Shown here: piece after piece, positions 11,873 through 51,829 of the stretch
Layout of the letters: the number at the start of each line of letters is the position of its first letter
How positions within the stretch are numbered: the first letter of the stretch is position 1
From: Calliopum simillimum
Lineage: Eukaryota > Arthropoda > Insecta > Diptera > Lauxaniidae
DNA length: 64,000 nt
Reading direction: 5' to 3'
Assembly: GCA_951812925.1 (NCBI GenBank)
Contig: OX638368.1
Location: 65,806,569-65,870,568, forward strand
Position numbers and translations under genes: made by a program
Notes under the pieces: generated by a model
Database searches by the model: none
Seen by the model: only the letters and a program-made list of their open reading frames with translations
Told to the model about the DNA's origin: nothing

Positions 11873-12455
11873 TATACATTAACTCGATTTTTAAGCAAAA
11901 TTTTAGTAGTTCTGTTTATGTTTAAATAAGACCATCTTTGATTCATTTGCAAAATTGCAACATGACCTTCATATTTTAAGACAATGGTTTACTTAACATG
12001 AACTAATTGTAAGTGAAAAAACAAAGCTTATGCTTTTCTCAAAGGACTCAGAGCCCTTTGACTGCAAAGTTGTTTTCCATTCCAATTTCTATAAGAAACA
12101 TAGCATAGAGCCGCATCCATATGGTTAAATCAACTTCATTAGTAATGAAATTTGTAGTTCTGGCTGCTTTGAAATCGAGGTGTTTAAGTACCTACGTGTT
12201 CTTATAGATAAAAAAACCAATTAAAAAGCGTATGTAACCAACTTAAAAAAATATGTCATGTCGATAATTCGCAAAAAGCTACTTACAATGGTTTATCATG
12301 GATTAGTTAGTTCGAAGCTTCAATATGGTCCAGGGAAGTAACAGTACTCTTGAACCTTTTATGATAGCACAAAAGCATATTATTAAACTTATTCTAAACA
12401 AAAGCAGAATGGAAAGTAGCTTTCCTTTTTTTTGTCATCTGCGCATTTTGCTATT
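11873..12455 (+). pseudogene. LINE reverse transcriptase, part 2
   Basis: Continues the reverse transcriptase after the fold-back element: YINSIFKQNF, then, across a frameshift, EKTKLMLFSKDSEPFDC, FEIEVFKYLRVLIDKKTN and KLLTMVYHGLVSSKLQYG, which are typical thumb-region motifs of LINE enzymes. The catalytic YADD box is destroyed by an indel near 11930. It is cut at 12455 by the BEL/Pao retrotransposon. The same frame resumes at 21175. Confidence 0.82.
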
Positions 12456-12759
12456 TGTTTACGCCAAAACATAGCCAAACACCCTGTACTTTGTTGTCGG
12501 TACAGTGGTGTTTGGTTATCTTCGAATTTTGTTTTGTTCACTATTTTCGGGCTGCCCCTCTGGCTCCCAATTATGTAAAATAACAACTGAACTCTGTACT
12601 TGTACAAACCCCGAACAATAAACGTCGTTCTCTCGCGCTTTATTACAATCGAAAAATCCGTGTTTTACTTTCGTCGGAAATTAGCCGGTTTTCTTCAGTT
12701 TTTTTGAATTAGTTTTCTTCAGTTTTTAAAAAGTAGTTTTTAAAATCCTAGAAAAAACA
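12456..12759 (+). repeat. 5' LTR of BEL-A (BEL/Pao retrotransposon)
   Basis: 304 bp, starting TGTTTACGCC and ending AGAAAAAACA (TG...CA). It appears identical by eye to the 3' LTR at 20866-21169. The 5-bp target duplication CTATT lies at 12451-12455 and 21170-21174. AATAAA at 12617-12622 is a likely polyadenylation signal. LTR identity implies a very recent insertion. Confidence 0.96.
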
Positions 12760-14214
12760 TTTGGTCCTATCGATCCGTCGGTGTGTTCCGCGAATTAAAA
12801 AAAATATACAAAATATAGCGCCGCGAGTGTTTGTGGAAAAAAAAACAACAAAAAAAAATTTAATTTGCCAACAAAGTGTTAAGAAATTATACAAAATTTT
12901 CAAATATTTAGCAAAAAAAGCTAATAAAATATTGGCAATATAAAAATAAAAAAGTGAAGTGAAGTGTTTTTTTTGCAGTCAATACAGCAGCGACTTCATC
13001 ATCTGGAATTGTCTCAACTTCATCCTTTTTTCAAAAATATATATTATTTATTTAATATCAAATTTTCAAGGTATGTGGTTTTAATTTTCTATAAAATTAA
13101 GGGAAAAAAGTGGAAAAGTTCGGTTCGGAAACGCGTATTTTATTCGACTCGTTAAGTTTTTCTATGTGGAAAAATTCTTGTAATCAAAAGTGTTATTTGA
13201 ATTAAAAAATTTTTCTTTTTCATACGTAATTTTGCATTTCTTGGTTTGTGTTACAAAATTGTTCAATTTTTTTTTTTTTTTGGCGCGGAAGAAACTATAT
13301 GTTTAAATTTTTTGTATATACTTTCAGTTGCTTAAGTATATATATAGTCGTTGACCCTTCTAAAATTTTGAAGGCAAAATCTATATACGTAAAGATTTTA
13401 TTTTTTTTTTTGCGTTAAATTGAGCAATTTTAAACGACAAAACAAGTGCAATTACAAGAACAACAATTTTTTCAGTTTGTTTTTTGTGTGACCAAATTAC
13501 CGAAAAAAAAGTTATTGCATCTCTCTCAAAGCCGAAGTTTTATGATCGGTTCATATGCAATAATTTTTCTAAATTTCGTTTGCGTCGCTTTTGCTTGCTC
13601 AAAGTGCATTTCAGTGCTTTAGCTTGTATCGTAAAAAATTTCAACCACCATTTGTGCATATAAAAAATTTGTACTCTCACGATTGCGCGTTCTTTCGTAT
13701 TCCTCTTTTAATCGTGTCCGTCAAAATCAAAGCGTTGGCTTTGGTTTGTGTTACAAATTTACATAGTAAATCTTGTACATATTTAGTTGCAGAGAGTACA
13801 CATAACAAACACAGTGCAAGAAATTTAAAATTTTTTCGGACAAAATTTTTTATTTATTAAATTAAATTTTTTGAACAAATTGATTTTTTTCAACTCAAAT
13901 TAAATAAAAAAAGGTGTATAATTAAGGAAAATTTTTACATTTTCGCATATTTTCATAAATATATTTTTATTTAAAATTTTTTTTTATTTTTCCCACACAG
14001 CTTTGTTTTTTTGACAGCTTGACAAAATTTTTGTGTCTTGTATTTTATTTTTCAAGTGATTGCCGATTAGGTATTTGCATTTTTTTCATTTTTTGCTTGA
14101 TTTTTGGTGTTTTTTTTACTTCTTTTGTCTTTTCTTGGCAATTTCAGTTACATTTAAATATTTTTGATTCAGTTCTTCCTAACTTAATTCAATATTTAAA
14201 AATATTAAAAAAAT
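12760..14214 (+). other. BEL-A primer-binding site and untranslated leader
   Basis: TGGTCCTATCGATCC from 12762, two bases after the LTR, is placed as the tRNA primer-binding site; I cannot name the tRNA. The long AT-rich leader has no convincing gene. It contains a consensus-like splice donor at 13070/13071 (TTCAAG|GTATGT). An acceptor-like site lies at 14147 (TCTTGGCAATTTCAG), 68 bases before the gag ATG. Confidence 0.7.
13069..13076 (+). promoter_or_regulatory. Candidate splice donor in the BEL-A leader
   Basis: AG|GTATGT matches the consensus donor well. It could pair with an acceptor at 14147 for gag-pol mRNA, and with one at 19542 for the downstream ORF. This is inference; no transcript was seen. 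Confidence 0.45.
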
Positions 14215-17200
14215 ATGGCTCAGTTAAAATCGTTCACTCGTTTGTCCGACTCTTTAGTCGAATTTGAAGTGGAGTTTAATGCCGTTGAAGCGCACGACAT
14301 TTTTTCAACAGATGCTCAACAAGACGAGCTAAAAGCCCAGTGGAGAAAACTTAAAACTTCATATGAGGCGTGTTTAGATGTAGTTGAAAAAAAGGAAGAT
14401 ATAGAATCATGTAAACAAAAGTATCGCAGTTGTTACCAATCTTATTTACGTGTGGCATCACGACTTTCTGAACTTTCTCAGAAGAAGCCACAACCAAAGA
14501 TTGGTGAAGCCAGTGTACCATTAAGTGGTCACAGCATGCCTGTACCACCTTGTGATACAGAGGTATTCGGTGGCGATTATCTCAAATGGCCGACTTTTAG
14601 GGACATGTTCACAGCCATTTATATTACTAACTCGCGTTTAACTGAAGTGGAAAAACTTTTTCACCTTAATAAAAAAACACAGGGAGAAGCAAAGGAAATA
14701 GTGATGAAATCTCCTTTGACAAACGATGGTTTTTCTCAAGCTTGGCGTGATTTATGCGACAGGTACGAAAACAAGCGTATCCTGGTCAATAGCCAATTAA
14801 AAATTTTATTTAATTTACAACAAGTACCAAAAGAATCTGGTGCAGATTTAAAGAAACTTCAACGAGATATTAATAGTTGTATTTTCGCGTTAACAACGCA
14901 CAATATTAATATCACAAACTGGGATGCAATTTTTGTATATCTCTGCTCGACACGTTTGCCTGAGGTCACTCTTTCTCTATGGGAACAATCCGTTACCAAT
15001 AAAACTGAGATACCAAAATGGGCAGACCTTGATTCTTTTCTTACCAGTCGTTTTCAAACACTGGAAACTGTATCAGATATTCGCAACTCTAGTGGTGCGA
15101 TACCAAAACAATGTTCAAACTCTCAGACGTTGGTCTCAAAGAGTCACCAGAACAACTCTTCTGGTAAGCGGGTAAATAGTTACCAGATAAAGGTCACTTC
15201 GATCAACTGCAAGCTTTGTTCGTCGGAGCAGCATGCGTTAAGAGTGTGTCCTAAATTTCTCAAGCTTAATCAAAAGGAACGTCTAGCAGTTGTCCGAAAG
15301 CATCATTTATGTGTCAACTGCTTAGGTCATTCTCACGAGATAAAAGCGTGTATAAGCCGATATAATTGTGCGACGTGCAAGCAACGTCACAACACACTTC
15401 TGCATCGAGATTCGACTCCAACCTCTTCTAATAATTTGAGTGTAGGCTCAAATGGATCGAATCCTCAAGCAAACCCCCCGGGCCCAAATACGCAATCTCA
15501 TTCTTGTCAGTTACAGTCCACTAACAAAGACATACAGACGTGTTTTTCCTCAAGTGCCAAAAAAGTGTTACTTGGTACTGCGATGGTGACCGTATGTCAC
15601 CTGGGTGCAGCGTACACCACCAGAGCACTTATTGACTCTGGTTCGGAAGGTACATTCATTTCTGAACGTTTGCAAAAATTGTTAAAAATTCCTACTCGAG
15701 GAATAAATGCTCAAGTTTCAGGTTTGAATCAAACTGTATCGGCGCAGGTGTCACAATCGTGTGACTTCGTAATTAGTTCTCCTAAAAATAGGCAATTCCA
15801 AATCGAAGCAACGGCTTTTGTGCTGTTTCGCTTAACTGGAAATTTGCCTTCTAGTTACATTGACCCTTCTGTATGTGAATCTTTGCCTGACATTCAGTTA
15901 GCGGATCCTCATTTCTTTAGAAGTGGTCAGATAGATGTTTTAATCGGTGGCGATTTGTATCCTGCCATAATCCTGGACGGAATTCGAAGAAATATTCTTG
16001 GTTCATTATTAGCGCAGGAAACAGTATTTGGCTGGATGTTTACTGGGCCTTTGCCTCAAAAGGAAATATCCACTTTTACTACGTGTTTAACACACTTCTC
16101 TGAAGTTGCGATTGATCAGCAAATCGCACGTTTTTGGGAGTTGGAAGAACTTCCAAAAAAGAAATTCATAACTCAGGTTGATAAGTTTTGTGAAGACAAC
16201 TATCAACAGACGACTAAACGCGACGAAAGGGGTAGATACATGGTCACTTTACCATTTAAAAGTGGCTACCCCAATGAAATAAATCTGGGTTTTTCTCGAG
16301 GTATAGCTTTCAAACAATTCGTTAGAAATGAAGCTAGACTAATTAAAAATCCTGACCTCAAAAATGAGTATGACAAAGTGGTAACTGAATATTTAAAGTT
16401 GGGTCACATGGTGAAGGTTGCTTCTCCAAAATTTGAAAAGTCGCCTGCTCATTATTATTTACCGCATCATGCGGTTATAAAACCAGAAAGAACTACCACA
16501 AAAGTTCGTGTAGTATTCAATGCGTCGAGTCCTACGTCCAACAGTGTCAGCTTGAATGATGTTCTGTACGCAGGACCTATTCTTCAAGCTGATTTGACGC
16601 TTCTGGTACTAAAATGGCGGTTTTTCAAATATGTTTTCAATGGCGACATTCAACAAATGTACCGTCAAATTCTTGTGGACCCCAAACATTCCGCTTTTCA
16701 ACGCATTCTTTTTAGAAGCTCACCTGATGATGAAATTCAGGATTATGAGCTGAAAACCGTAACTTTTGGCGTGAATTGTGCTCCATATTTGGCAATTCGA
16801 ACAATTCTGCAATTGGCAGATGACGTTCAACAACGCTATCCTCTTGCCGCTGAAATATTGCGGCACTATACTTATGTTGATGATGCCTTAGCTGGGGCTC
16901 ATGACGAGGAAACTGCCATTAATGCTAGAAATGAGCTTATAGCTGCTCTTGATTCGGCAGGATTTACCATGCGAAAGTGGACTGCTAATGCATTCAGCAT
17001 TTTAGCAGATCTTCCCACGGAGCATCTGTTACGAGAAGATTTTTTAAAATTTGAAGATGCGAGCTGCGTCAAAGCCTTAGGCGTTTGTTGGAACGCCACG
17101 ACAGATTTATTTTATTTCACTACGAAGCGTTTAGAAATTAAGTCGTCCTACACAAAAAGGGAAGTTTTGTCAGTTATTGCGCAACTTTTTGATCCTGCGG

Positions 17201-19440
17201 GTTGGCTAGCACCTATAGTGGTGATAGCTAAAATTCTTATGCAGCGGATTTGGCTTGATGGAATAGATTGGGATGAAACCATTCCACCCCATAGCTTTCA
17301 GTCTTGGCAAACTTTTTTGCAAGATTATTCAAATATTGATAATATCAGGATTCCTCGATATGTAAGTTTTTCACCTACTTCAGAAGTAGAATTTCACGCT
17401 TTTTGTGATGCTTCGGAAAAAGCATATGCTTCGGCAGTTTATATTCGTATCAAGCAAAGTGATTGCATAGTCAGTCACTTGCTATACTCTAAAAGCAAAG
17501 TTGCTCCTGTTAAAACGGTTTCTTTGCCACGCCTTGAATTATGCGGGGCAAATTTACTAGCAGACATGGTTGACACCTTAGTGCCTCAAATAAACTTGGA
17601 TCACCATCGTTTATACTGCTGGACAGATTCGACCATTGTTCTGGCTTGGCTTTCAAAGCCCCCCTGCTCATGGACAACTTTCGTTGCAAATAGAGTATCT
17701 AAAATCGTTGAAAAGGTTGGAAATCAGAATTGGTTTCATGTGGAATCACATGACAATCCATCTGATTTGGCTTCACGTGGGGTAACACCTCAGGAGCTTA
17801 TTAACAGCACTCTTTGGTGGCATGGTCCATCATGGCTTTCGTCAAATAATTCTTTTTGGCACAACCAACCTGAACCTTCACTCATCGAAACTTCTCTTGA
17901 ACGCAAAGGTGTTAAAGTTCATTTTGCATATTTTTCGAAATATGACGATATTTTGGAGCGTTTTTCGTCACTGCCGCGTGGATTACGGGTTATAGCCTAT
18001 GTATTTCGTTTTTTAAATCGCACCCATCCAGTACGGCGCGCTTCATTTTCATGCAAGTCAGAATCTATTGACAATAGCGAAATAAAAACAGTCAGAAATC
18101 GGTTAATTTTGCTAAGCCAAAAAGTTCACTTTTCTGAGGAATATCATCGCTTAGAAATTAACCAACCCATTGACTACAAAAGCTCTATTTTGGCTCTTAA
18201 TCCGTTCGTTCATTCGGACGGGTTGCTGCGTGTGGGTGGGCGGTTAGCATCTTCACCTGTTCTTTCGTACGACGAAAGACATCCAATTTTGCTACCGTAC
18301 AACTGTCACTTTACTAGGTTGCTAGTAAAGTATATTCATGAAATTTCACTGCACGGGGGAAACCAATTGGTGCTTCGTCTTCTTCGAACGCAATTTTGGA
18401 TCCCACGTGCGAAAAATCTGATAAAGACAACTCTTCACAATTGCAAAGTTTGCGTTGTCAATTCAAAAAAGCAAAGGACTCAAATTATGGCTGCACTCCC
18501 CCCTGAGCGCACCAATATTTCGAGACCATTTTCATCTACGGGAGTGGATTTTGCTGGCCCCTTTGATATGAAAAGTTTTTCTGGTCGAGCTTGCCGAATA
18601 ACAAAAGGTTACGTTTGCTTGTTTGTTTGTTTTGCAACAAAAGCAATTCACCTTGAAGCCACAAGTGACTTGTCAACAGCTACATTTTTAGCGGCATTTA
18701 CACGTTTTGTTTCTAGACGTGGCTGCCCTGCCAATGTCTATTCTGATAATGGAACAAACTTTTTAGGCGCGTCGAGAGTCCTCAAACGTGAATTCAAGGA
18801 ATTCCTCGACAATTCACATGATGCCGTTGTCTCACAATTTGCGCATCAGGGAATTTCTTGGCATTTTATTCCAGCTGCAGCACCTCATATGGGAGGTCTT
18901 TGGGAAGCTGGCGTAAAATCTTTCAAAAATCATTTTAAAAAGGTTGCTGCAACACTTAAATACACTTTTGAAGAATTTTCCACCATTCTTAATCGAGTCG
19001 AATCGTGCCTAAATTCGCGTCCGCTTAGCGCCATGTCTGAAGACTCGTCGGATCTTCAGCCTTTAACTCCTGGCCACTTTTTGGTCGGGGGCCCTCTGCT
19101 ATCTCCAACTGAACCAGAGATAGACGAACAACCGCTTACCATCGTCAATCGATGGCAGAAAGTCAAGGCTATGCAGCAGCACTTCTGTCGCAGATGGAAA
19201 AGCGAATATCTTAAAGAGTTGCACAAGCGCGTTAAGTGGAAAACTCCCCAGCGAGAATATGCTGTTAACGACTTGGTCGTGGTGAGAGATGAAAACTTAC
19301 CAGCAAATGAATGGCGATTAGGCCGGATAGTAAAAACTTATCCCGGCAGTGATAATCGCGTACGCGTTGCAGAAATCCGAACCGAACGTGGCTGCATTAC
19401 GCGGCCTATTGTCAAACTTGTGGCACTTCCATTGCCATAA
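14215..19440 (+). CDS. BEL/Pao gag-pol polyprotein, intact (1741 aa)
   Basis: A single uninterrupted frame. The N-terminal third is gag, with the capsid-like segment FGGDYLKWPTFRDMF near residue 120. Zinc knuckles of the BEL type follow at about 331-395 (CKLCSSEQHALRVC, CVNCLGHSHEIKAC, CATC...HNTLLH). The aspartic protease has ALIDSGSEGTFIS near 474. The reverse transcriptase has FNGDIQQMYRQ and YVDDALAG (about 886). RNase H has FHAFCDASEKAY (about 1062) and CWTDSTIVLAWL (about 1134). The integrase has an HHCC finger (about 1374-1412), then VDFAGPF (about 1443), YSDNGTNF (about 1508) and MGGLWEAGVK (about 1560). The DUF5641-type tail ends at 1741. All catalytic motifs are present. The protein packages, copies and integrates the element. 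With identical LTRs it is probably an active or recently active copy. Confidence 0.97.
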   Translation: MAQLKSFTRLSDSLVEFEVEFNAVEAHDIFSTDAQQDELKAQWRKLKTSYEACLDVVEKKEDIESCKQKYRSCYQSYLRVASRLSELSQKKPQPKIGEASVPLSGHSMPVPPCDTEVFGGDYLKWPTFRDMFTAIYITNSRLTEVEKLFHLNKKTQGEAKEIVMKSPLTNDGFSQAWRDLCDRYENKRILVNSQLKILFNLQQVPKESGADLKKLQRDINSCIFALTTHNINITNWDAIFVYLCSTRLPEVTLSLWEQSVTNKTEIPKWADLDSFLTSRFQTLETVSDIRNSSGAIPKQCSNSQTLVSKSHQNNSSGKRVNSYQIKVTSINCKLCSSEQHALRVCPKFLKLNQKERLAVVRKHHLCVNCLGHSHEIKACISRYNCATCKQRHNTLLHRDSTPTSSNNLSVGSNGSNPQANPPGPNTQSHSCQLQSTNKDIQTCFSSSAKKVLLGTAMVTVCHLGAAYTTRALIDSGSEGTFISERLQKLLKIPTRGINAQVSGLNQTVSAQVSQSCDFVISSPKNRQFQIEATAFVLFRLTGNLPSSYIDPSVCESLPDIQLADPHFFRSGQIDVLIGGDLYPAIILDGIRRNILGSLLAQETVFGWMFTGPLPQKEISTFTTCLTHFSEVAIDQQIARFWELEELPKKKFITQVDKFCEDNYQQTTKRDERGRYMVTLPFKSGYPNEINLGFSRGIAFKQFVRNEARLIKNPDLKNEYDKVVTEYLKLGHMVKVASPKFEKSPAHYYLPHHAVIKPERTTTKVRVVFNASSPTSNSVSLNDVLYAGPILQADLTLLVLKWRFFKYVFNGDIQQMYRQILVDPKHSAFQRILFRSSPDDEIQDYELKTVTFGVNCAPYLAIRTILQLADDVQQRYPLAAEILRHYTYVDDALAGAHDEETAINARNELIAALDSAGFTMRKWTANAFSILADLPTEHLLREDFLKFEDASCVKALGVCWNATTDLFYFTTKRLEIKSSYTKREVLSVIAQLFDPAGWLAPIVVIAKILMQRIWLDGIDWDETIPPHSFQSWQTFLQDYSNIDNIRIPRYVSFSPTSEVEFHAFCDASEKAYASAVYIRIKQSDCIVSHLLYSKSKVAPVKTVSLPRLELCGANLLADMVDTLVPQINLDHHRLYCWTDSTIVLAWLSKPPCSWTTFVANRVSKIVEKVGNQNWFHVESHDNPSDLASRGVTPQELINSTLWWHGPSWLSSNNSFWHNQPEPSLIETSLERKGVKVHFAYFSKYDDILERFSSLPRGLRVIAYVFRFLNRTHPVRRASFSCKSESIDNSEIKTVRNRLILLSQKVHFSEEYHRLEINQPIDYKSSILALNPFVHSDGLLRVGGRLASSPVLSYDERHPILLPYNCHFTRLLVKYIHEISLHGGNQLVLRLLRTQFWIPRAKNLIKTTLHNCKVCVVNSKKQRTQIMAALPPERTNISRPFSSTGVDFAGPFDMKSFSGRACRITKGYVCLFVCFATKAIHLEATSDLSTATFLAAFTRFVSRRGCPANVYSDNGTNFLGASRVLKREFKEFLDNSHDAVVSQFAHQGISWHFIPAAAPHMGGLWEAGVKSFKNHFKKVAATLKYTFEEFSTILNRVESCLNSRPLSAMSEDSSDLQPLTPGHFLVGGPLLSPTEPEIDEQPLTIVNRWQKVKAMQQHFCRRWKSEYLKELHKRVKWKTPQREYAVNDLVVVRDENLPANEWRLGRIVKTYPGSDNRVRVAEIRTERGCITRPIVKLVALPLP

Positions 19441-19543
19441 TTTTCGTTGTATAAGCTAATCATACGTTCCGTTCTCTTTTTTTTTTGTCCACATTTTTTT
19501 CCCCACACACATAACCACATAAACTTGCAATCTCATTTTTAGA
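19441..19543 (+). promoter_or_regulatory. Candidate branch point and splice acceptor before the BEL-A accessory ORF
   Basis: After the pol stop comes GCTAATCAT (branch-point-like), then a pyrimidine-rich stretch (TTCTCTTTTTTTTTTG, TTTTTTTCCCC) and finally CTCATTTTTAG at 19532-19542. The accessory ATG begins at 19544, one base after the AG. This suggests expression from a spliced subgenomic RNA. A comparable TTTTTTTAG stands four bases before the ATG of the BEL-B accessory ORF at 51255. Confidence 0.6.
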
Positions 19544-20680
19544 ATGTCTGTCGACAATATTGCCATTAATGGAATCATTTATGAGGACTCAGATGACCTC
19601 ATGAGCGTTTGCAGCCGAACATCTCCGAGAAGCGCTCTATCCAGTGCTGTTGTCGCAGTGCAAAGCAGGCCAGAAAGCGTTTGCACTAACGCTACGGTCT
19701 CTTCGAAGCAGCCATCCATACCAGAAAGCGTTTGTACTAACGCTACGGTTTTAGAGAAGAAAAGAGCCACACCAGAGAGCGTTTGCACTAACGCTACGGT
19801 GTCCACCAGGCACAAGGCACCACCCCGTGCGTGTCCCCTCTGTGCCAAAAGGCATGCCATTGCGCAGTGCCGCCAATTCTTGGCGAAGGACTTGGCGTCG
19901 CGATTAAGGGCAGCTCTCCGTCATGGATTCTGCACTAATTGTCTTGCCGATAGTCACTCGCGTAAGAATTGCTCGAGTAAGCATCGATGCCGGTACTGTG
20001 GTGACGACCATCACACTCTGCTGCACGACGAAGACGACTTCGGGGCCATGCGCCCAAAAGCCAAGCGTGCAGGACGTGTAGTGCGTCAAAAGTTTTATCT
20101 GGATAGGCAGCCAATAGAGGTAAGGCAACGGCCCAGTCAGAAAAATCATCTGACTGAATCCATTTCCCTTTCACAGAGGTTCCGCCCGCGAGTAGCGAGA
20201 CGAGCGTCTCCACCCCCTCCTTCGTCCGTTTCAACACAACGCATCGTGACGCTGCTACCAACCGCTGTTGTGCGTGTGCTGGTACAGGGTCAACTCAAAA
20301 AAGAGAGAGTGGTTTTAGACGGGTGCTCTCCAAAAACCCAAATTTCTCGTGACTTGGCGAGAAAGTGGCGCATCCGCACATCCACCATCGACGGCGAAGA
20401 GGTGTGCTCGTTAGAGATACGGTCTTGCACCGACAATAACGAGTCCATATGTGTGATGGCTCAGGTGGAACGTCGCCTCGACATAATCACGCCGACTCGT
20501 TCTCTCGACGATAGGGTGAAGGAGCCGTACCTAAATCTACGACTTGCTGACCCCAACTTCCACCAGTCAGCACCCATTCAAATACGCCTAGGTATCGAGG
20601 TGTATCAGCGAGTTATGCGAGCAGGTGTGTTTCCGACTGGTATCGGACAACCTCTCGCCCAAAACTCGATACTTGGATGA
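19544..20680 (+). CDS. BEL-A accessory ORF: zinc knuckles plus protease-like domain (378 aa)
   Basis: Complete frame between pol and the 3' LTR. The N-terminus has three spaced copies of PESVCTNATV (residues about 43-90). Knuckles follow at about 96-160: CPLCAKRHAIAQC, CTNCLADSHSRKNC and CRYCGDDHHTLLH. These mirror the knuckles of the element's own gag-pol (about residues 331-395). From about 250 a protease-like domain follows, but the catalytic DSG is replaced by DGC (VVLDGCSPKTQIS, Asp259). The C-terminal LRLADPNFHQSAPIQIRLG parallels gag-pol LADPHFFRSGQIDVLIG. The stop replaces the Trp of the FGW motif (ILG then TGA). It is probably an RNA-binding, structural or regulatory protein without normal protease activity. 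The likely source is an old duplication of the knuckle-protease region. Function unknown. Confidence 0.9.
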   Translation: MSVDNIAINGIIYEDSDDLMSVCSRTSPRSALSSAVVAVQSRPESVCTNATVSSKQPSIPESVCTNATVLEKKRATPESVCTNATVSTRHKAPPRACPLCAKRHAIAQCRQFLAKDLASRLRAALRHGFCTNCLADSHSRKNCSSKHRCRYCGDDHHTLLHDEDDFGAMRPKAKRAGRVVRQKFYLDRQPIEVRQRPSQKNHLTESISLSQRFRPRVARRASPPPPSSVSTQRIVTLLPTAVVRVLVQGQLKKERVVLDGCSPKTQISRDLARKWRIRTSTIDGEEVCSLEIRSCTDNNESICVMAQVERRLDIITPTRSLDDRVKEPYLNLRLADPNFHQSAPIQIRLGIEVYQRVMRAGVFPTGIGQPLAQNSILG

Positions 20681-20865
20681 ATCGTGTCCGGTTCTGGAGC
20701 CTGGTGATTCAACCACGACCTTGAATTTTTTTCATATTATTTTTTTTCCTATCATAGTTTTTTTATTATAATTTTTTACATACATTTTTTCCCTCTTGAA
20801 TTTAATTTTTTTTTATTATCATGAATTTTTTTTTAACCTTTGCATTCCTGCAAGGTGGGCGGCAA
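20681..20865 (+). other. BEL-A 3' untranslated region and polypurine tract
   Basis: T-rich tail after the accessory ORF. The purine-rich AAGGTGGGCGG at about 20852-20862, just before the LTR, is placed as the plus-strand primer. Confidence 0.65.
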
Positions 20866-21169
20866 TGTTTACGCCAAAACATAGCCAAACACCCTGTACT
20901 TTGTTGTCGGTACAGTGGTGTTTGGTTATCTTCGAATTTTGTTTTGTTCACTATTTTCGGGCTGCCCCTCTGGCTCCCAATTATGTAAAATAACAACTGA
21001 ACTCTGTACTTGTACAAACCCCGAACAATAAACGTCGTTCTCTCGCGCTTTATTACAATCGAAAAATCCGTGTTTTACTTTCGTCGGAAATTAGCCGGTT
21101 TTCTTCAGTTTTTTTGAATTAGTTTTCTTCAGTTTTTAAAAAGTAGTTTTTAAAATCCTAGAAAAAACA
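20866..21169 (+). repeat. 3' LTR of BEL-A
   Basis: 304 bp. I found no difference from the 5' LTR. Followed by the target duplication CTATT (21170-21174). Confidence 0.96.
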
Positions 21170-21174
21170 CTATT

Positions 21175-22796: not shown

Positions 22797-23095
22797 TAAA
22801 ACATCATTTTATGCCTTCCATTGGTAGGCTCAATCTGAACAAAACATAATTTTGTGCCTTCGATAGGAAAGCGCAGTATGAACAGAACATCATTTTGTGC
22901 CTTCGATGGGAAAGCGCAATTCGAACAGATCATCATTTTGTGCCTTCATTTGGAAGGCGCAATCTGAACAGAACATCATTTTCGATAGGAAGGCGTAGTA
23001 TTAACAGAACATTATTTTAGGCCTTCGATTGGAAGGCACAATCTGAACAGAATATCATTTTGTGCCTTCGATTGGAAGGCGCAATCTGAACAGCC
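22797..23095 (+). repeat. 43-bp minisatellite, about seven units
   Basis: Unit approximates AACAGAACATCATTTTGTGC followed by CTTCGATTGGAAGGCGCAATCTG. Units start about every 43 bases from 22797; one is shortened. It is followed by unrelated sequence from about 23100. Confidence 0.88.
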
Positions 23096-46740: not shown

Positions 46741-47764
46741 TTGGGTGTACAACCTAAAAGCCGGAATTTTTTAGCGAAATTTGATGCTTTATTGTGGAAA
46801 AATTTTACAATATATTTTGTTCAAAGTATTGTCCATTGGACGCTACAACATTTCCCCATCTTTCAGGCAATTTATGAATTCCATCCCAAAAAAATTGCGC
46901 CGGCTTGGCGGCCAAAAATGAATCGAGCCAATTTTCGATATCTTGAACTTAAGTGAACCGTATTCCTGATAGGGCATTCTGCATCGATCGAAACAAATGG
47001 TAGTTAGATGGTGCAAGGTCTGGGCTATAAAGCGGGTGAGGCAAAATTTCCCATCCGTTGTTTTCCAGATAATTTTTGACTGGGGCAGCAATATGTGGCC
47101 GAGCGTTATCGTGGTGGAAAATGATTGACTCGTGTCTGGTCGCATACGTTGGCCGCTCTGCCTGGATTTTCTGCTTCAATCGGATCAATTGTTGACGATA
47201 GAGTTGAGCATTAATGGTTTGGCCACCTGGCAACAGCTCATAATGGATCACACCTAGCTGGTCCCACCAAATACAGAGCATTACCTTCGAAGCGTGAATA
47301 TTTGGCTTCGGCTGTGATGGGCCGGCCTCACCTTTCTTGACATACGCTGTTTTGCGCTTGGGATTATCGTAATGGATCCACTTCTCATCGCCAGTGACAA
47401 AACGATGCAAAAAACCCTTCCTTTTGTGGCATTCACGCAGCATTGTGGACATAAAAAATCGGCGTTCGACGTCCCTTGGCTTCAACTCGTATGGCACCCA
47501 ATTTCTCATCTTTTTAAAAATTCCCAAGGCTTTCAAACGTCTGGAAATTGTTGCTCGATCAACTTTCAATGGTTCTGCAAATTCTTCTTGCGTTTGACAT
47601 GGATCTTGATCGAGTAATGCCTCCAATTCTTCATCCTCAAACTTTTTCGGCTGACCAGGACGTTCTTTGCCTTCGACATCAAAATCACCACTTTTGAACC
47701 GTCGAAACCATTCACGACAGCTTGATTCAGCTGGAGCATAGTCCCCATAAACCCGCAAAAGCAT
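46741..47764 (-). pseudogene. Mariner transposase, nearly complete, N-terminus missing
   Basis: Open frame of 271 codons (47764-46949). It carries CREWFRRFKSGDFDVE, WVPYELKPRDVERR, VTGDEKWIHYDNPKRK (Asp 1), FHHDNARPH (Asp 2) and HPLYSPDLAPSNYHLF (Asp 3); the DD34D triad is present. After a frameshift near 46950 the C-terminus continues to about 46800. The 3' end TTGGGTGTACAACC is at 46741, after a TA. About 45 residues of the N-terminal DNA-binding domain and the 5' inverted repeat are lacking; the left junction in the gypsy gene is at about 47765. Looks like the mellifera/irritans type. Not autonomous. Confidence 0.88.
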
Positions 47765-50472: not shown

Positions 50473-51255
50473 TTACGTAATTAATACAACAATATTTGGT
50501 GCACGTTTTACGTTGCCGCAGCACACCCAGCCGAATATAGTTGGAATTGCTGCAGGAGCATCAAGTGCAGTACGCGGCTCTCCACGCAGAATTTGAGCAA
50601 ACAAGTCGGCTCCGATAACAAACTGCACCTTATATGTACCCCAATAGTACTTGTCGGCCAGTTCAAGCATAGGATAGCTTTTTTCAATCAAATCGCGACA
50701 AGGCTTGTATGGTGGAAATTTACCATATTCAGTTTTCTCCACCAATGCGATAACCCATACCGAATCATCTGGGTTGTGCCTCGACCGTAGCATTAAGTAA
50801 CATGACTGCTGATCTTCAAACACCTCGATCCTTAGTCGTTGCACTTCACTGAATAAAATAGTGGTGCGGTCTTGACCTGGGTTGATTAGACGAATCACTT
50901 TTGGACCATAATCTGTCATGATTTCGACCAAAACTGTCATTTTTAACTTCACGACAAGGTCAATTAACTCTGGGTGGGATAAGAACCGAGGACAATTTGG
51001 TGTTGGTATTTCTAGTTGCTCGTGAAGGTGAAGCAATGTATGATGTCGGCTGCGACAAATGCGGCAGCGTTGCTCATTTTCACAAGAACGAAGCTCATGT
51101 GACTTGGCGAGACAATTTGTGCATCCATCATGTTTTTGGACAGTTTCCCTGCGAGCAAGTGCATTCATAGCGTGAAACCGGCTGCAAAATCGTAGAGAGT
51201 GATCCAGACGACAGATCGGACACTGGTACTTTCTGTTATACAGACGGCGCTTCAT
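50473..51255 (-). CDS. BEL-B accessory ORF: zinc knuckles plus protease-like domain (260 aa)
   Basis: Open frame from ATG 51255, four bases after TTTTTTTAG, a likely splice acceptor. Knuckles lie at residues about 12-75: CPICRLDHSLRFC, CTNCLAKSHELRSC and CRICRSRHHTLLH. A protease-like domain follows with RLINPGQDRTTILF, in which the catalytic Asp is Asn. Then come LELADKYYWGTYKVQFVIGA and IPTIFGWVCCG. It is the counterpart of the BEL-A ORF at 19544, though the two are very different in sequence and this one lacks the PESVCTNATV repeats. It lies 117 bases downstream of a BEL pol C-terminus on the same strand. Pol in this element is shattered, yet this ORF is intact. Confidence 0.85.
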   Translation of the reverse strand: MKRRLYNRKYQCPICRLDHSLRFCSRFHAMNALARRETVQKHDGCTNCLAKSHELRSCENEQRCRICRSRHHTLLHLHEQLEIPTPNCPRFLSHPELIDLVVKLKMTVLVEIMTDYGPKVIRLINPGQDRTTILFSEVQRLRIEVFEDQQSCYLMLRSRHNPDDSVWVIALVEKTEYGKFPPYKPCRDLIEKSYPMLELADKYYWGTYKVQFVIGADLFAQILRGEPRTALDAPAAIPTIFGWVCCGNVKRAPNIVVLIT

Positions 51256-51372: not shown

Positions 51373-51562
51373 CTATTGGTCAGGTTTAGTAGGTAAAATG
51401 ACAAGTTTATGGATCGGCCTCGTGATAACACCGTTTTGTGTCAGAATGTCAGTCACACGAACACGTTTATCAGAGCCAAAATATACTTTTACGATACGAC
51501 CTAATCGCCACTCCGAGGGACCTACAAGTTCATTGCGTACAATAACCACGGCGCACACTGCG
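51373..51562 (-). pseudogene. BEL-B pol C-terminus (DUF5641-type)
   Basis: Reads VVIVRNELVGPSEWRLGRIV, KRVRVTDILTQNGVITRPIH and KLVILP, then stop. It aligns with the last 50 residues of BEL-A gag-pol (NEWRLGRIVKTYPGS, TRPIVKLVALP). Its upstream part is separated by inserted DNA (51563-53770). Confidence 0.85.
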
Positions 51563-51829
51563 TTGGCCCATAGACAAAAATCAAAATTTTTTGTGACTCA
51601 AAACCTAACAATATTGATATCAATCGACAACTAATTGTATTAAAAAAATAAAACTAAAATATTTAGGGGAAAAACTCAGTTTTGGCTATGCTGTGAAGCT
51701 TCAAAGTTGAGATATTTTTTAAAAAAAATCATGTTTTCTTCGACTCGTTTTGGGTTCTCTTAAACAAATAATTATCAAAAATTTGTATTTTAATTAAATT
51801 AAACGAAGTAAAGTTATTTATTATAAATA
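51563..51829. other. No gene recognised
   Basis: AT-rich, at the edge of the inserted repeats inside BEL-B. Confidence 0.3.

Follow-up and report, generated by a model that had tools for sequence, protein, structure and literature searches.

A gag-pol-derived, probably spliced accessory gene in fly BEL/Pao retrotransposons

A BEL/Pao retrotransposon in a 64,000-nucleotide stretch of the genome of Calliopum simillimum (Diptera, Lauxaniidae; hereafter the window) carries a second gene after pol, an open reading frame (ORF) of 378 codons that we call ORF2. We found that ORF2 is homologous to the triple zinc knuckles and protease of the element's own gag-pol, is linked to pol in most of the copies listed, is under purifying selection, has lost the protease flap and lies behind conserved splice-site sequences. 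It is almost certainly a selected accessory gene of gag-pol origin, and very probably one that is expressed by splicing. A role in handling genomic RNA, suggested by analogy, is plausible and is advanced here tentatively.

A preliminary description of this DNA reported an intact ORF between pol and the 3′ long terminal repeat (LTR) that repeats the knuckle–protease layout of gag-pol and contains three PESVCTNATV repeats; we confirmed each of these points. The frame starts with ATG and has no internal stop. Its translation contains CPLC, CTNC, CRYC...HHTLLH, VLDGC and LRLADPNF where gag-pol has CKLC, CVNC, CATC...HNTLLH, LIDSGSEG and IQLADPHF, and BLASTP aligned it with the knuckle–protease stretch of its own gag-pol at 81 of 313 identical positions (26%; 88 bits; E = 4e-24), a similarity far above chance that begins at the knuckles. 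Like the nucleocapsid–protease segment of BEL/Pao (Belpaoviridae) gag-pol, with which it aligns end to end, ORF2 combines a triple Cys-His box with a retropepsin-like domain after it whose end reads LADP...G(A)D...AQ..FGW; it differs in being a separate gene after pol, in lacking the DUF1759/capsid part, in having a flap about 13 residues shorter and in mostly lacking the D-S/T-G triplet. Pfam returned no match to ORF2, including none to DUF1759 or a capsid, and a search of PDB sequences with an ORF2 profile gave eight matches, the best with an E value of only 0.17. In a set of 22 related proteins Asp_protease_2 was the best Pfam match to recur (7 of 22; best E = 0.0037), a viral fold library returned mainly aspartic proteases and polyproteins, and the C-terminal domain was assignable to the retropepsin fold. 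The linker between knuckles and protease-like domain has an isoelectric point of 11.7–12.0 in all seven subfamily representatives. The PESVCTNATV copies are exact, are encoded by a 51-nt tandem repeat (19670–19800) and are a trait of the window's subfamily, being absent from the other aligned representatives; the window's ORF2 also stops nine codons earlier than its near relatives L002–L010.

The preliminary description also read DGC in place of the catalytic DSG as a sign of a probably non-proteolytic protein. VLDGC is indeed present, but it is a weak sign of a dead protease, and the consistent difference is the loss of the flap. The flap segment has 10 residues in all 28 accessory proteins compared, as against 20–26 in all 29 gags, and we conclude that the constant change is the loss of about 13 flap residues, not DGC. 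No DSG or DTG occurs in the 55 open ORF2 copies described below; D259 is retained across those shown, and some relatives have N, S or C in place of D. DSG is also missing from many gag-pol proteases (which have DPAS, DAAS, DCAS or DDAS), while two accessory proteins, P0013 and P0014, keep it, and we therefore dropped DGC as proof of inactivity; proteolysis has probably been lost all the same. ORF2 is a clear case of selection keeping a protease domain after flap loss. Four gag-pol-type proteases of Musca and Haematobia (P0025, P0026, P0028 and P0054) combine DPAS at the active site with a retained flap; perhaps unusual triplets are tolerated in BEL/Pao proteases, or else these particular copies are dead.

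Copies of the gene are numerous. Searching the 690-Mb genome with tblastn gave at least 111 matches to ORF2 at 41–100% identity, a lower bound because only the best candidates were scored. We read 70 loci, of which 55 were picked as open copies on two criteria, a length of 325 codons or more and an AG ahead of the ATG; they form seven subfamilies whose representatives are 38–70% identical, and knuckle ligands are retained in 53–55 of the 55. The C-terminal piece of pol gave at least 150 scored matches. Among those listed at 75% identity or more, 92 of 108 have a listed ORF2 match no more than 3 kb downstream, so related elements do not lack the gene. Three loci of more distant families (L077–L079; pol 67–70% identical), which had no listed match, all proved to have ORF2, open in two (about 277 and 274 codons) and broken in the third. 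The window itself holds a second, diverged ORF2-like gene beside a pol fragment; together with a purine-rich stretch at about 49840, downstream of that gene and followed by the LTR-like start TGTTCACGC, these are the remains of another BEL/Pao lineage. We conclude that genes of this type are common to many families and not peculiar to the window element. A single-copy oddity was dismissed in view of the numerous ORF2-bearing pol copies and the second gene in the window, as was a chance ORF or recent fragment duplication, since copies as far apart as the seven representatives are open and constrained. Two same-strand pairs of ORF2 loci lie 8463 bp (L004/L005; G000 C4:48.59 Mb) and 8367 bp (L017/L018; G000 C1:75.90 Mb) apart. 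Both distances are close to the length of an element less one of its LTRs (8410 bp for that in the window), as would be seen if neighbouring copies in tandem shared an LTR.

Selection on ORF2 was estimated from the ratio of nonsynonymous to synonymous divergence (dN/dS) by pairwise Nei–Gojobori comparison within subfamilies, dS between subfamilies being saturated; pairs are not independent. Medians in the five subfamilies with usable pairs were 0.125, 0.125, 0.125, 0.186 and 0.265, and we conclude that the copies are under purifying selection, not evolving neutrally. By region, the window group and subfamily S2 gave 0.025 and 0.038 for the knuckles, 0.075 and 0.074 for the protease-like part and 0.33 and 0.32 for the N terminus; the protease-like part of S3 and S5 gave 0.08 and 0.23. 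The pol C terminus is similarly constrained: for the first three subfamilies its values are 0.16, 0.13 and 0.09, and those of ORF2 in the same pairs 0.13, 0.10 and 0.12; in a fourth (3 pairs) the values were 0.45 and 0.19. In eight copies the branching order was identical for ORF2 and pol, and pairwise identities correlated at 0.975. ORF2 diverges faster than pol (38–64% versus 75–84% identity between subfamilies). We conclude that ORF2 has been inherited along with the rest of the element and did not join it lately as a passenger.

Splice signals and the second gene in the window were absent from the preliminary description and are added here. The sequence ahead of ORF2 reads ...ctcatttttag|aATG, the candidate acceptor ending at 19542. 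All seven representatives pass a pyrimidine–AG test, but they and the 55 open copies are unsuited to testing the acceptor, having been chosen for an AG before the ATG. In an unbiased test we therefore located starts from the region after the ATG only. This recovered a start region at 67 of the 70 loci, and an AG directly precedes the start in all 67, one of which (L027) has GTG for ATG; the 40 nt upstream are only 23–68% identical between subfamily representatives. In distant families the distance from the end of the AG to the ATG is 0 nt (L078), 3 nt (L079), 4 nt (second gene in the window) and 10 nt (L077). As a yardstick, 52 of 1007 plus-strand ATGs in the window pass the pyrimidine–AG test within 10 nt. 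The leader of the window element has one strong donor, AAG|GTATGT at 13070/13071, and a strong donor occurs 1115–1226 nt before gag in five of the six leaders that cover the site, against an expectation of 0.14 per shuffled leader (simple shuffles; some leaders are related). Between primer site and donor, five leaders (1736 nt) contain no ATG, compared with 35 in the remaining 5909 nt; L071, which stops short of the donor, entered neither count, and L074, with only some 18 bases ahead of its donor, was omitted when ATGs were counted. Together, the conserved acceptor, the strong leader donor and the ATG-free stretch between primer site and donor suggest a spliced ORF2 mRNA, in which the ATG would lie one base past the junction. 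Candidate acceptors ahead of gag differ in position between leaders. In L071 (G000 C2:114599350-114601600, 89%-type), acceptor-like sequences lie 960 and 1118 nt before gag, compared with 67 and 214 in the window; the leader of L071 is thus about 0.9 kb longer there.

Relatives outside this genome come from protein databases. An ORF2 profile gave 144 hits among public proteins, of which 120 were listed; these include short ORF2-like proteins of Rhagoletis, Zeugodacus, Lucilia, Stomoxys and several Drosophila species. Their database labels are 'uncharacterized', 'hypothetical' or 'Peptidase aspartic putative domain', and several unnamed fly proteins are now recognisable as relatives of ORF2. 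A third homologue search added five proteins, of which by eye P0123 (Haematobia) and P0124 look ORF2-like and P0125 gag-like. Sequences for the trees were chosen by hand: seven ORF2s, the gag of the window element, and 21 short and 28 long proteins out of the 120 listed hits, with GAG_P0052 left out for gaps. All 28 accessory proteins cluster together in the resulting 56-tip tree (bootstrap 92), next to the gags of the window element, Musca, Haematobia and Rhagoletis. The origin proposed in the preliminary description, a duplicated gag-pol segment, fits both the pairwise similarity and the trees, and one duplication of knuckles and protease in an ancestor of these elements would be the simplest reading. 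Because the gene is spread over Drosophila, tephritid and calyptrate flies, it is presumably old, unless elements moved between hosts. Four proteins of about 200 residues from Rhagoletis and Bactrocera (P0058, P0059, P0063 and P0077) have triple knuckles and an arginine-rich basic tail and no protease part; they are perhaps a further reduced accessory gene. P0023 of Drosophila pseudoananassae, kept out of the trees, has by eye the look of a chimera, with ORF2-type knuckles ahead of a gag-type protease with flap, which could be due to recombination or a gene-prediction error.

We propose that the gag-pol segment for the triple zinc knuckles (nucleocapsid) and protease was duplicated and the copy placed after pol behind a splice acceptor of its own, where it lost the flap and usually the D-S/T-G triplet while being kept by purifying selection. 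A spliced subgenomic mRNA that skips gag-pol would supply ORF2 independently of Gag-Pol. From the sequence we infer a protein that binds nucleic acid and acts in the nucleus. Its target would most likely be the unspliced genomic RNA of the element itself, contacted by way of the knuckles and the highly basic linker; the protease-like domain would serve as a protein–protein module, perhaps for dimerisation. An element whose gag-pol is spliced out has unspliced RNA to export as well, and ORF2, being separate, basic, knuckle-bearing and probably made from a spliced mRNA, is well placed to bind it. It may then shift the balance from splicing towards export, stability or packaging of that RNA, in the manner of Rev and CERV. 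We regard the whole chain, from duplication through splicing to RNA handling, as quite plausible, if just short of probable. More doubtful, though still conceivable, is the broader proposal that BEL/Pao elements have a regulatory accessory gene, an old family of pseudo-proteases, expressed by splicing and binding RNA, that derive from their own nucleocapsid and protease. These would control the fate of unspliced genomic RNA as complex retroviruses do, but would have been invented independently and from other parts.

Several observations weigh against this account. One of the six leaders, L073, has a weak donor only, and ATGs also occur upstream of the primer site, so the status of the ORF2 start as 'first ATG' is conditional on where transcription starts. 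Sixteen of the 108 listed pol matches have no listed ORF2; only one of them, L080, was opened, and there ORF2 was present and broken off in the protease-like part. In two of the four subfamilies analysed by region the knuckles are no tighter than the rest (dN/dS 0.17 in S3 and 0.29 in S5). Support for the accessory clade fell from 92 to 39 with all columns, and to 85 without the flap columns, on adding the second protein of the window; the same seven gags remained adjacent, with support of 76 and 88, respectively. ORF2 shows no export signal or RNA target recognised in this analysis, and the evidence for the chain comes from sequence.

Retropepsins act as dimers, and the protease-like domain has a dN/dS of 0.07–0.08 in three of four subfamilies although it is flap-less, as expected of a binding module. 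Both points would suit a self-encoded brake, in which this domain pairs with the Gag-Pol protease, or the knuckles compete with Gag for RNA, lowering maturation or assembly much as Ty1 p22/p18 does by joining Gag. This alternative has a precedent in Ty1 p22, as described in the accessible part of PMC8458377, but we consider it unlikely: elements bearing ORF2 are numerous, selection favours the gene within the element, and p22 derives from a capsid domain that ORF2 lacks. If ORF2 were instead a second nucleocapsid, an RNA chaperone in particles beside Gag that assists reverse transcription or packaging with no nuclear role, its very basic linker and a triple Cys-His box the same as that of Gag would be accounted for; a plain chaperone, however, needs neither a separate mRNA, here probably spliced, nor a conserved protease-like domain, and we think this rather improbable.

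A working short-flap protease that cuts Gag-Pol or a host protein is very improbable. The retropepsin fold, the retention of D259 in the open copies shown and the two relatives that keep DSG could be cited for it, but the uniformly short flap, the lack of DSG or DTG in every one of the 55 copies and the replacement of D by N, S or C in some relatives argue otherwise. Least credible are the readings of ORF2 as an env-like gene or as a duplicate that is carried along and decaying. ORF2 occupies the position of env and probably shares its splicing mode of expression, but we found no membrane-like segment (highest 19-residue Kyte–Doolittle mean 1.14–1.55 in six representatives) and zinc knuckles in its place, on which grounds an env-like protein was dismissed; decay sits badly with the low dN/dS and with frames that stay open across seven subfamilies.

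The comparisons that follow draw, for CERV, Ty1 and the MDG1 group, on the accessible parts of the sources. CERV of the Caenorhabditis elegans Ty3/gypsy element Cer1 is spliced and shares peptides with GAG, and the export of unspliced RNA depends on it (PMC10309623). By analogy it is the nearest precedent for ORF2: an accessory protein from a spliced mRNA (for ORF2, probably), partly Gag-like, in an LTR element that exports unspliced RNA. CERV differs in belonging to another element family, in having a five-exon mRNA, in having no triple Cys-His box reported, and in that its role in export was shown by mutants (PMC10309623) whereas that of ORF2 is proposed only; the two are likened here by description. 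The Ty1 restriction factor p22/p18 is likewise a Gag-derived product made apart from Gag-Pol (PMC8458377), whereas ORF2 descends by duplication and divergence from nucleocapsid and protease and has no C-terminal capsid part. The sORF2 of MDG1-group retrotransposons, also an accessory ORF of fly LTR elements, encodes a membrane, fusogen-like protein of 63–107 residues, lies mostly upstream of gag, comes with no splicing evidence and has domains unrelated to those of ORF2 (PMC11952523). Like ORF2, the env-like genes of some BEL/Pao elements come third in order, after pol and ahead of the 3′ LTR (PMC8742986), but ORF2 has no membrane-like segment and is built of gag-pol parts.

The Belpaoviridae profile of the International Committee on Taxonomy of Viruses lists gag, pol and sometimes env (PMC8742986). 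The accessible parts of a BEL/Pao survey (PMC3118150), a Drosophila LTR survey (PMC5408442), a review of Drosophila elements (PMC7334843) and the Sinbad report (PMC554778) do not mention such an accessory gene, nor does that of the report on the olive fly BEL-Pao element Achilles, whose clone lacks the 3′ end (PMC4580426); additional ORFs of other LTR elements are reviewed in PMC5408684 and PMC7264820, also accessible in part. A literature search found no title on such a gene, although Repbase, FlyBase and most subscription papers, which may record it as an unnamed ORF, were outside its reach. If the proposal is true, a conserved, probably spliced gene derived from gag-pol makes part of BEL/Pao resemble the complex retroviruses, and it raises a testable question: how unspliced RNA leaves the nucleus in a fly element with a retained intron.

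The element in the window (Table 1) is young: its LTRs, which the preliminary description had judged identical, show no differences over 304 bp. Pfam, run on the gag-pol frame in three pieces, identified DUF1759, an aspartyl protease, RVT_1, Peptidase_A17, integrase zinc-binding and DUF5641 domains, and the knuckles were read from the translation. Nucleocapsid, protease, reverse transcriptase and integrase lie in the order of Belpaoviridae, along with the triple Cys-His box in Gag that is a trait of that family (according to the accessible part of PMC554778). Both LTR and total length fall within the family limits of 0.2–1.2 kb and 4.2–10 kb (PMC8742986). In Belpaoviridae the primer site spans 18 nt and matches tRNA-Arg or tRNA-Gly.

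Table 1. Features of the BEL/Pao element and related remains in the window
Feature	Position (strand)	Size	Remarks
BEL/Pao element, complete-looking	12456-21169 (+)	8714 bp	LTR pair and target duplication
5′ LTR	12456..12759 (+)	304 bp	target duplication CTATT at 12451-12455
Primer-binding-site-like sequence	12762..12777 (+)		starts TGG, 2 nt past 5′ LTR
Putative non-coding first exon of ORF2 mRNA	12760..13070 (+)		LTR to donor; ATG-free between primer site and donor
Candidate intron of ORF2 mRNA	13071..19542 (+)		donor AAG|GTATGT, acceptor ...catttttag; predicted from sequence alone
gag-pol frame	14215..19440 (+)	1741 aa	DUF1759, triple Cys-His box, protease (LIDSGSEG), reverse transcriptase, Peptidase_A17, integrase zinc-binding, DUF5641
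ORF2	19544..20680 (+)	378 codons	between gag-pol and 3′ LTR; ATG start, 0 internal stops
ORF2 layout	residues 97-161 (knuckles), ~237-378 (protease-like)		N-terminal part with PESVCTNATV repeats; three knuckles; basic linker; flap-less retropepsin-like domain
Polypurine-tract-like sequence	20850..20865 (+)		ahead of 3′ LTR; by eye
3′ LTR	20866..21169 (+)	304 bp	target duplication CTATT at 21170-21174
Second, diverged ORF2-like gene	50473..51255 (-)	260 aa	another BEL/Pao lineage; triplet NPG, flap segment 8; AG ends 4 nt before ATG
pol C-terminus fragment (DUF5641)	51373..51597 (-)		directly upstream of second ORF2-like gene; other, decayed element

An Rfam scan of the window gave no match at the gathering score, and a search of a phage collection gave no match. 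Directly downstream of the element lies a tandem array with periods of 43 and 122 nt (22800-23093). Farther on, at 46949-47764 on the minus strand, the window contains a mariner-like transposase ORF of 271 residues with a Transposase_1 domain (E = 5e-28) and a Mos1-type helix-turn-helix.
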